Below, piece by piece: positions 9,853 through 38,721 of a DNA stretch of 39,226 nucleotides. This DNA is from Oscillospiraceae bacterium (GTDB lineage Bacteria; Bacillota; Clostridia; Oscillospirales; Ruminococcaceae). How positions within the stretch are numbered: position 1 is the stretch's first letter; each line of letters begins with the position of its first letter. The stretch lies in contig JAILIG010000065.1 of assembly GCA_024695445.1 (NCBI GenBank), positions 1 to 39,226 of the forward strand, in the 5' to 3' direction. The position numbers and the translations under genes are program-made. The notes under the pieces were generated by a model. It was given only the letters and a program-made list of their open reading frames with translations. It was not told the origin of the DNA and ran no database searches.

Positions 9853-10217
9853 CGGCCCAAACTAAAGTTTCGGTCAAGCCTTTTCAAAGGCTTGCAGGTC
9901 GAGGGCAGCGCCCTCGTCGCCGCCCGCAGGCGGCGAAACTCTCTGGACTTGATAAGAGCTCCGCCGAGGGGAGTGAATTGCCGCGCAGCGGCAAGAGGGG
10001 GGACGCCCTGCGATAGAGGGCGTCCCTCCTTTTTTGATCGCATCCGCGAAGCGGATACTTATTCTTCATAGGCTTACGCATAATGAGGAGCTGAAACTGA
10101 GCACTTTTGTCTTTTGTGCAATGGAGGAGAAAGGCGAAACATGATTTGCGGGCGTTTCCGGCGGGCTTTAGATCATTGGCCGCCGGCACTGCCGGCCGGA
10201 GAGCTTTAGATCATTGG
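9853..10217 (+). repeat. Mosaic hairpin repeat, copy 1
   Basis: Fills most of the 541-base gap between the DUF1015 gene and glmS. Ordered inverted repeats are hp1 9875-9894, hp2 9900-9916 (loop AGC), hp3 9917-9936 (loop CGCA), hp4 9978-9994 (loop GCA), hp5 10000-10026 and hp6 10042-10056 (loop GAA). Then comes a conserved tail with AATGGAGGAGAAAGGCGAAA and two CTTTAGATCATTGG motifs. The stretch 9945-10197 aligns with 19786-20037 over about 250 bases with few differences. The first half aligns with the reverse complement of 38391-38570. No protein of its own is convincing. Confidence 0.9.
10000..10035 (+). terminator. Repeat-borne intrinsic terminator after the DUF1015 gene
   Basis: GGGACGCCCT (10000-10009) pairs with AGGGCGTCCC (10017-10026) around a GCGATAG loop, with TTTTTT at 10030-10035. 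The same hairpin recurs in the other repeat copies. Confidence 0.8.
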
Positions 10218-19653: not shown

Positions 19654-20345
19654 CCATTGATCTAAAGCTTTCCGGCAGCGCATATTAAAGTTTTTGGTCG
19701 AGCTTTTTTCAAAAAGCTCGCGGGGATGAGGGGCAGAGCCCCTCATCGCGCTCCGCAGAGCGCGAAACACTCAGGACTTGATACAGGACTTGATAAGAGC
19801 CCCGCAAGGGGAGTGAATTGCCGCGCAGCGGCAAGAGAGGGGACGCCCTGCGATAGAGGGCGTCCCCTTTTTTTGATTGCATCCGCGAAGCGGATACTAT
19901 ATTCTCCATAAGCCGGCGTTTTACGAGAAGCTGAAATGGAGCGCTTTCGTTTTTTTTTCGCAATGGAGGAGAAAGGCGAAACATGATTTGCGGGCATTTC
20001 CGGCGGGCTTTAGATCATTGGCCGCCGGCACTGCCGGCCGCGGGGCGCGAATGCGAGGGGGAAACCCAAAGAGGGAAGGAAGCGGCTCCGCTGCGCTGCC
20101 CCCTTCCCCCTTTAGGTTTCCCCAAGTATATGCTTTGCATATACGGCGCGCATCCCCTTTCCTGATTCCCCTTCTCCTAGTTGTTCTCCTTTCGCTCGCT
20201 GGGCTCCTTTTTCGTTGACTTTGCCGTAGAGAAGCGGACAAAAGGTTCTTACTTTGCTGCCGGAGAGCTTTAGATCATTGCCGGCGCGGGCTCCGCGCAA
20301 AAAAGCTCGACCAAAAACTTTAATATGCGCTGCCGGAGAGCTTTA
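19654..20345. repeat. Mosaic hairpin repeat, copy 2, bounded by a 47-base inverted repeat
   Basis: Fills the 713-base gap between two convergent genes. The left arm 19663-19709 and right arm 20299-20345 are inverted copies with one mismatch in 47. Inside are hp1 19699-19720, hp2 19725-19747 (loop AGA), hp3 19746-19765 (loop CGCA), hp4 19818-19834, hp5 19838-19868 and hp6 19881-19895, in the same order as copy 1. Further hairpins follow at 20058-20123 (long, imperfect), 20126-20144 (8 pairs, loop TTT) and 20285-20298 (loop GCT). CTTTAGATC-type motifs occur at 19654 (inverted), 19999, 20256 and 20329. A GGACTTGATA(C/A) unit is duplicated at 19774-19795. No convincing gene lies within it. Confidence 0.9.
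19838..19874 (+). terminator. Repeat-borne intrinsic terminator after the HD gene
   Basis: AGGGGACGCCCT (19838-19849) pairs with AGGGCGTCCCCT (19857-19868) around a GCGATAG loop, and T-residues run to 19874. It is homologous to the hairpin at 10000-10026. Confidence 0.88.
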
Positions 20346-23724: not shown

Positions 23725-23773
23725 GCGGGACGGGCTGTGTGGGCGTGACCAATCTTCATATCCGGCGATGTCA

Positions 23774-23836
23774 AAATAAAAGTTTTGGTCGTGCTCCGCA
23801 AGAGGGGGACGCCCTGCGACAGAGAGCGTCCCCTTA
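23774..23836 (+). repeat. Truncated mosaic repeat
   Basis: AAAAGTTTTGGTCG is joined directly to GCTCCGCAAGAGGGGGACGC. The first part matches the beginning of copy 2, and the rest matches the region of hp4-hp5, so hp1-hp4 appear deleted. The hp5 arms are partly decayed. It lies in the 396-base gap between the scaffoldin gene end and the sigma gene. Confidence 0.7.
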
Positions 23837-23868
23837 AAAAGACTGTGCTGAACTTTTTCGACAGACTG

Positions 23869-23898
23869 AAGAACCCCCGCCTGACGGCAGGGGTTCTT
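23869..23898 (-). terminator. Hairpin after the scaffoldin-like gene
   Basis: AAGAACCCC (23869-23877) pairs with GGGGTTCTT (23890-23898), with three more pairs inside and one mismatch. The tail on the minus strand is only weakly T-rich. It lies 63 bases past the stop. Confidence 0.6.
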
Positions 23899-38330: not shown

Positions 38331-38358
38331 AGGGGACGCCCCGCAAAAAGGCATCCCT
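38331..38358 (+). repeat. Hairpin repeat flanking copy 3, left unit
   Basis: GGGGACGCC, a CCGCAAAAA loop and GGCATCCCT. The same sequence recurs at 38665-38689 as GGGACGCC / CCGCAAAAA / GGCGTCCC, in direct orientation. This left unit may terminate pheT, but its T-tail is weak. Confidence 0.65.
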
Positions 38359-38390
38359 CAGTCTGTCAAAAAAGTCATCCTTGTCTTTTT

Positions 38391-38570
38391 AGGGGGACGC
38401 CCTCTATCACAGGGCGTCCCCCTCTTGCCGCAAGGCGGCAATTCACCCCCTTGCGGAGCTCTTTTTCAGTCCTGAGAGTTTCGCGCTCTGCGGAGCGCGA
38501 CTTAGGGCTCCGCCCTAAGAACCCGCAAGCCTTTGAAAAGGCTTGACCGAAACTTTAAATTGGGCTGCCG
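38391..38570 (-). repeat. Mosaic hairpin repeat, copy 3 (inverted)
   Basis: Read on the minus strand it gives the same order as copies 1 and 2: hp1 38526-38545, hp2 38501-38519, hp3 38481-38500 (loop CGCA), hp4 38425-38441, hp5 38391-38423. It lacks the T-run, hp6 and the conserved tail of the other copies. It occupies the 427-base gap between pheT and the macro-domain gene. Confidence 0.88.
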
Positions 38571-38635
38571 GCGGGCTTTCGATCAATGCCGGCGCGGGCT
38601 CCGCGCAAAAAAGCTCGACTATAAACTTTAGTTTG
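38565..38635. repeat. Repeat motif cluster next to copy 3
   Basis: CTGCCGGCGGGCTTTCGATC (38565-38584), then a CGCGGGCTCCGCG hairpin (from 38594, loop GCT), then AAAAAAGCTCGACTATAAAC. The same three blocks in the same order lie at 20256-20320, at the right arm of the copy 2 inverted repeat. Confidence 0.8.
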
Positions 38636-38664
38636 GGTGTCCGAGGGTTCATCGACAAGCTGAA

Positions 38665-38689
38665 GGGACGCCCCGCAAAAAGGCGTCCC
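38665..38689 (+). repeat. Hairpin repeat flanking copy 3, right unit
   Basis: A perfect eight-pair stem (GGGACGCC 38665-38672 with GGCGTCCC 38682-38689) and a CCGCAAAAA loop; a direct repeat of the unit at 38331-38358. Confidence 0.75.
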
Positions 38690-38721
38690 CTCTTTATATA
38701 CATACAGAAAGGAATGATTCT

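Follow-up and report, generated by a model that had tools for sequence, protein, structure and literature searches.

Our analysis indicated that a five-hairpin sequence dispersed through the genome of an Oscillospiraceae bacterium is probably the body of a non-autonomous IS1182-type transposon (MITE) of Ruminococcaceae, in gut bacteria of the Ruminococcus type. From sequence comparison we place the probability of this reading at about 0.7. The window, which is the whole stretch of 39,226 nucleotides that was analysed, contains three copies and a fourth one with an internal deletion. The copies fall into two classes, which differ in what follows the last hairpin. Class B copies are best read as IS1182-type MITEs with duplication of a whole terminator, and class A is tied to class B by the shared core. 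The mobile-element reading is absent from the first-pass annotation of this DNA, which had described three copies of a multi-hairpin intergenic element.

Copies in the window and in related genomes

The core extends from a AAACTAAAGTTT-like start to the end of hairpin 5 (hp5) and measures about 170-190 bp. Re-reading of the sequence found the three copies at the places given in the first-pass annotation, with the arms as written there. The hp2 arms are CGAGGGC in copy 1, GATGAGGGGC in copy 2 and CTTAGGGC in copy 3, each matched by its partner arm. For hp3, copy 1 has the arm sequence TCGCCGCC and copies 2 and 3 have TCGCGCTC; the CGCA loop between the arms is constant.

Copies 1 and 2 belong to class A and are located on the forward strand. 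The core of copy 1 spans 9857-10027, tighter than the earlier limits of 9853-10060, and is composed of hp1 (9873-9895), hp2 (9900-9916), hp3 (9917-9936), hp4 (9978-9994) and hp5 (9999-10027). A T-run at 10030-10035 follows hp5. The core of copy 2 spans 19678-19867 (earlier limits 19684-19900). It contains hp2 (19725-19747) and hp3 (19746-19765), which have two bases in common, hp4 (19818-19834) and hp5 (19839-19867), followed by a T-run at 19868-19874. An alignment of 32 copies with flanks from the same genome indicated that in class A, hp5 is followed by the T-run and then by a further GCATCCGCG hairpin. In copies 1 and 2, hp5 and the T-run probably now act as the terminator of the upstream gene; this T-run is the first one after the hairpins behind that gene. 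The spacer of copy 2 contains a 12-bp stretch, CAGGACTTGATA, that is tandemly doubled (19771-19793). Near the same copy, at 20299-20329 on the reverse strand, a 31-bp piece of the core start is found that is identical to copy 2 and in the opposite orientation.

Copy 3 belongs to class B. Its core is located at 38393-38563 on the reverse strand (earlier limits 38391-38570) and, by inspection, lies against both neighboring genes, which are on the other strand. In this class, hp5 is followed by CTAAAAAGAC...CTTTTTCGACAGACTG, and an inverted counterpart, CAGCTTGTCGATAAAC, is found on the left. The right terminal inverted repeat of copy 3, CTTTTTTGACAGACTG, is located at 38359-38374 and the left one, CAGCTTGTCGATGAAC, at 38647-38662, both on the reverse strand. 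Outside the right end is a terminator-like hairpin (38331-38358, reverse strand), one copy of the duplicated target. The second copy of this hairpin is located outside the left end (38663-38691, reverse strand). The fourth copy (23770-23868, forward strand) is internally deleted. Its hp1 start is joined to hp5, and it ends in a terminal repeat (23853-23868) that is the same as that of copy 3. A terminator-like palindrome (23869-23898) lies directly outside this end. The terminal inverted repeats and the duplicated terminator around copy 3, the fourth copy, and the different right ends of copies 1 and 2 compared to copy 3 had all been missed in the first-pass annotation.

Copies 1 and 2 carry no terminal inverted repeat within a limit of one mismatch, and copy 1 has neither a terminal repeat nor a target duplication. 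Both are set in a REP-like mosaic with no clear ends. Copies of this kind are read as older or rearranged, and fused to REP-like repeats. The tails of copy 2 and of three further copies of class A contain TTTTACGAGAAGCTG, which is two mismatches off the terminal repeat and is perhaps a relic of it. A separate REP-like repeat, GATCTAAAGCNNNCCGG, is located beside a GCCGGCAGTGCCGGC palindrome. It occurs seven times in the window, at 2466-2482, 10158-10174, 10196-10212, 19659-19675, 20000-20016, 20260-20276 and 38568-38584 (0.38 expected), and 50 times in the whole genome (reversed control 0).

Similar to known MITEs, the element is short, non-coding and present in many dispersed copies. Blastn with copy 2 gave 48 matches in its own 2.88-Mb genome, which bears out the earlier view that the copies are not random leftovers. 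A low number of genomic copies, which had been named as a point against the element, was not observed. A model search gave 67 matches in the own genome, and matches were found in 27 of the 30 genomes of the genus, own included. At E<=1e-4 and with stricter filters, 29 of the 117 other genera sampled in the family also gave matches. Eighty-six of 110 model matches were carried forward, and removal of one identical copy reduced the distinct copies from 112 to 111. Parts of the core, either hp1-hp3 or hp4-hp5, match alone at many places. The own genome is a fragmented metagenome-assembled genome (MAG), 89% complete, in which these repeats are points of contig breakage.

A blastn search with copy 2 against 72,556 records of plasmids and 50,697 of phages gave no match. 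The window contains no Rfam match at the gathering score, in agreement with the first-pass annotation, which could name no family for the element. Nine related loci, searched at a lax threshold, gave 10 hits, none of them above gathering. No IS1182-family MITE and no element of this kind was found in the open-access literature covered. A survey of candidate structured RNAs of human microbiomes (PMC8040213) may include the five-hairpin motif.

Terminal repeats and doubled terminators

The intact element is composed of the inverted repeat CAGYYTGTCGAWAAA, about 20 bp, hp1 to hp5, about 30 bp, and the inverted repeat TTTWTCGACARRCTG. These spacings differ in other genera. Class B copies adjoin the foot of an intrinsic terminator, and many of them have the complete terminator stem-loop on both sides as a direct repeat. 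The length of the direct repeat tracks the palindrome and is not a fixed number (25-37 bp). At locus L103, AAACGGGACTCCGCACCGGAGCCCCGTTT is identical on both sides. At the same locus, outside the copy at 911-1087, a further CAGTCTGTTGAT is found past the second terminator copy, as if the hairpin had served twice.

The flank-repeat and terminal-repeat counts cover the copies with at least 80 nt of flank, 27 own and 79 from relatives. Palindromic direct repeats of 25-37 bp were identified by rule in 7 of the 27 own copies and 6 of the 79 from relatives. One of these 13, L265, scores 16.5 against a control maximum of 17.0, with the same insertion at L131 among its controls. One insertion is common to genomes G016 and G002 (L288, L289), and L131 and L265 therefore represent one event. 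At L130 and L131 the duplication is visible by eye and was missed by the rule. In 7 of 29 own copies, the direct repeat in the flanks outscores all cross-pair controls.

The search for terminal repeats was limited to one mismatch, because class A copies are also caught at two or three. Within this limit, a terminal repeat on either side was found in 8 of the 27 own copies and 10 of the 79 from relatives. The duplication is present in 10 of the 18 copies with a terminal repeat and 3 of the 88 without one (Fisher p 3e-7, a guide only since the copies are related). A terminal repeat within this limit is missing from most copies, as is the duplication. Longer repeats that are not terminators flank some copies.

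The 36 nt after the terminal repeat fold at <= -9 kcal/mol in 29 of 32 distinct ends, compared to 24% of 600 random 36-mers. Fourteen sites in the own genome match the terminal repeat, and two match the reversed control pattern. Twelve of the 14 are preceded by the core hp5, and a hairpin starts within 3 nt at 13. Insertion at stem-loops and terminators agrees with the target choice of IS1182-type elements. The same layout with terminator duplication is found in other genera, at L191 (G031) and at L236 (G034), the latter with right and left repeats. The neighboring genes, where readable and by inspection, are convergent at L130, L131, L103b, L236 and L272.

No clean pair of a filled and an empty site was found at three gene-end sites, where the neighbors differ between species. 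The stretch was read in 7 of 9 loci after pheT (L009 and L015 gave no ORF), in 24 of 26 loci, out of 27 listed, after a transporter gene, one of them with only 5 bases, and in 26 loci after htpG. At L301, in the stretch behind the transporter gene, a segment of about 300 bp that does not resemble the core is flanked by two copies of a terminator. Terminator-doubling insertions may carry varied content.

IS1182-type partners and a proposed pathway

Autonomous partners with element-like ends were found in sister species. These are IS1182-family insertion sequences (IS) in G018 (L275) and G001 (L274), whose proteins match NCBIfam IS1182 at 426 and 332 bits, respectively (cut-off 270). The protein at a further locus, L284, is IS5-type. 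The IS in G018 has the ends CAGCTTGTCGAAAAAGTC and GACAGTCTG and is flanked on either side by AAGCGATGCCGAACAGACGGCATCGCCT, the same whole-terminator duplication. The end common to the IS and the element is AAAAAG...CTTTTTCGACA-CTG with an inner inverted pair. DUF772, which is shared by IS1182 and IS5-type proteins, was found in 10 of the 30 genus genomes and PF13751 in 3 of 8 genomes. No IS1182 transposase domain (DUF772, PF13751) was found in the own MAG, at its completeness of 89%.

IS1182-type elements target stem-loops and terminators, according to three reports (PMC4923244, PMC5678879, PMC3098183). PMC5678879 draws duplication of the whole stem-loop as a possible pathway for IS1182-type transposition, and our loci look like natural products of it. 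IS1272, the best studied relative, is reported to delete its target hairpin without doubling it. In contrast, the hairpin is doubled in the 13 copies identified by rule, and its loss was not observed in them.

We infer that an IS1182-family transposase would move the element in trans. It would join the element ends at the two feet of the terminator, which is probably extruded as a cruciform, and gap repair would then double the stem-loop. When the terminator is common to convergent genes, each gene would keep one after insertion, so that the cost would be low. The doubling suggests how tens of insertions could accumulate at gene ends at low cost.

The element resembles members of the IS1182 family such as IS1272 and ISCbo5 in the kind of ends, as seen in the sister-species IS, and in the target class of stem-loops and terminators. 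Unlike them, it has no transposase gene, and its body is a chain of 8-11 bp hairpins. Bacterial MITEs such as RUP and QMITE (review PMC10969869) are likewise short, non-coding and intergenic, with strong folding, presumed movement in trans and inverted ends, which in our element are found in class B. The target repeat of our element, where present, differs from theirs in being a whole terminator of variable length instead of a short fixed sequence, and its body covaries in matched pairs across genera. Group IIC introns also insert beside terminator hairpins, but introns are not known to have inverted ends or to duplicate their target.

Covariation and alternative explanations

Both arms of the hairpins change while pairing is kept, as had been claimed from three copies. 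In 37 aligned copies selected by a strict pattern (26 own and 11 from relatives), standard pairs account for 99.3% of 1480 cells (40 pairs in five helices), compared to a shuffled mean of 93.3. Two-sided changes are found at 13 pairs and in 104 cells. The shuffled mean is 33.7, none of 500 shuffles reached 104, and sliding the 3' partners left at most 3 such cells. The covariation holds with dozens of copies aligned. Over the 111 distinct copies (30 shuffles each), the mean MFE z is -6.4, with a range of -12.1 to -2.9.

hp3 was found in 107 of the 111 distinct copies, from 24 genomes. Twenty-three of its 26 alleles are fully Watson-Crick, and its cells include 154 with two-sided changes, one with a one-sided change and two with G·U. 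Comparison of alleles that differ at a single base pair gave 14 two-sided transitions, 11 two-sided transversions and 4 one-sided changes; in one of the transitions, the alleles compared are not Watson-Crick at that pair. The hp3 allele pattern fixes some outer letters, and a looser count agrees (849 Watson-Crick of 856 cells). The looser count sets no letters for the hp3 arms and only a few for those of the other hairpins; it misses hp3 in 4, hp5 in 9, hp2 in 11 and hp1 in 23 of the 111 copies. For hp1, hp2, hp3 and hp5 together it gave 2953 Watson-Crick cells; the remaining cells were 11 G·T, 10 A·C and 18 of other kinds. hp4 has a long form in 51 copies, with 5 G·T and 2 A·C, and a short form in 45. 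hp2 is less clean than hp3, with mismatches in 13 of 41 alleles over 7 pairs, partly from a bulge.

In the own genome, each of the three commonest hp2 alleles occurs with both hp1 alleles, and therefore hairpin modules reassort between copies as blocks. Such modules would be exchanged among copies. Loci L104 and L106 have a common left flank and differ in hp2, hp3 and the right end. They were set aside as a candidate for hairpin switching at the same site, since rearrangement, strain mixture or an assembly chimera is possible in a short-read MAG.

G·U pairs should be tolerated in an RNA helix. Here, G·T is not more frequent than A·C, and this symmetry therefore points to DNA, although not decisively, as many of the odd cells may reflect decay after insertion, which is symmetric too. 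A tRNA control gave 5 G·U in 35 cells from only 5 usable tRNAs, too few to lean on. The matched arm changes are more in keeping with DNA palindromes than with an RNA gene; either a process acting on DNA or selection that precedes copying would keep such palindromes perfect. The first-pass annotation had argued for selection on folded RNA or single-stranded DNA. Its observation of kept pairing stands, and folding of single-stranded DNA is a possible basis of the matched arms. The RNA part of the argument fits less well with the scarce one-sided states and the similar numbers of G·T and A·C.

The body would consist of DNA palindromes in a chain, with the match between arms maintained at the DNA level. 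As the cause of the coupled changes we infer either correction by template switching or hairpin copying, or selection that favors extrusion ahead of copying. PMC8794818 offers template switching as a route by which matched changes arise with no intermediates. The listed hp3 alleles show none of the loop inversions that template switching would leave in some cases. We tentatively suggest, at less than even odds, that the matched changes come from a DNA process coupled to replication or transposition of the element (template-switch or hairpin-copy repair) and not from RNA selection, giving textbook covariation without RNA function, and that the loci arose through joining by the transposase at each foot of a cruciform terminator, which is doubled as a result. 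Strand-symmetric and nearly intermediate-free covariation suggests that covariation, taken by itself, may signify a DNA palindrome carried by a mobile element, a caveat that matters for structured-RNA surveys of gut metagenomes.

The same data bear on whether the core is instead a structured RNA, either a small RNA or a 3'-UTR element, with its fold under selection and its dispersal with mobile DNA due to chance. Strong covariation and the low mean MFE z agree with this explanation, as do the constant hp3 loop, a constant GGGGTGAATT-like stretch and the T-run after hp5 in class A. However, one-sided states are nearly absent, transversional double changes are about as frequent as transitional ones (11 versus 14), and the G·T to A·C ratio (11 versus 10) argues in the same direction within the limit given above. 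Tens of copies per genome and the orientation of copy 3 against both neighboring genes, as judged by inspection, also disagree with an RNA gene, and we consider this explanation quite unlikely. The core may also have spread by another route, through its own mobility or recombination among intergenic repeats, with IS1182-type ends merely capturing it in some copies. The many copies with no terminal repeat at one mismatch, the separate matches of hp1-hp3 or hp4-hp5 and the different right end of copies 1 and 2 are consistent with such a route. Recurrence of the layout and the terminator duplication in other genera (L191, L236) argues against it, together with the 12 of 14 terminal-repeat sites in the own genome that belong to the core and the possible relic TTTTACGAGAAGCTG in class A tails. 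We regard this route as unlikely.

Palindromic intergenic repeats in mosaics, including the 50 occurrences of GATCTAAAGCNNNCCGG in the own genome, are reminiscent of REP/BIME-type elements moved by a RAYT (Y1) transposase, which are also present in many copies. However, Y1_Tnp is absent from the own genome and was found in 3 of the 30 genus genomes. RAYT-type REPs are not known to give terminal inverted repeats or target duplications, whereas both are found in class B. Movement by RAYT is very unlikely for the element. The IS1182-type MITE remains the preferred reading.

Additional repeated or constant sequences were observed in and around the core. The interval between hp3 and hp4 (for example at L126) contains a nearly constant CGCAAGGGGTGAATT that resembles a Shine-Dalgarno sequence; inspection by eye revealed no conserved reading frame. 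Cores in G019 and other genomes (L128, L150, L302) are flanked, sometimes on both sides, by a different multi-hairpin repeat, ATAATGGGGC...GAATCCCG.
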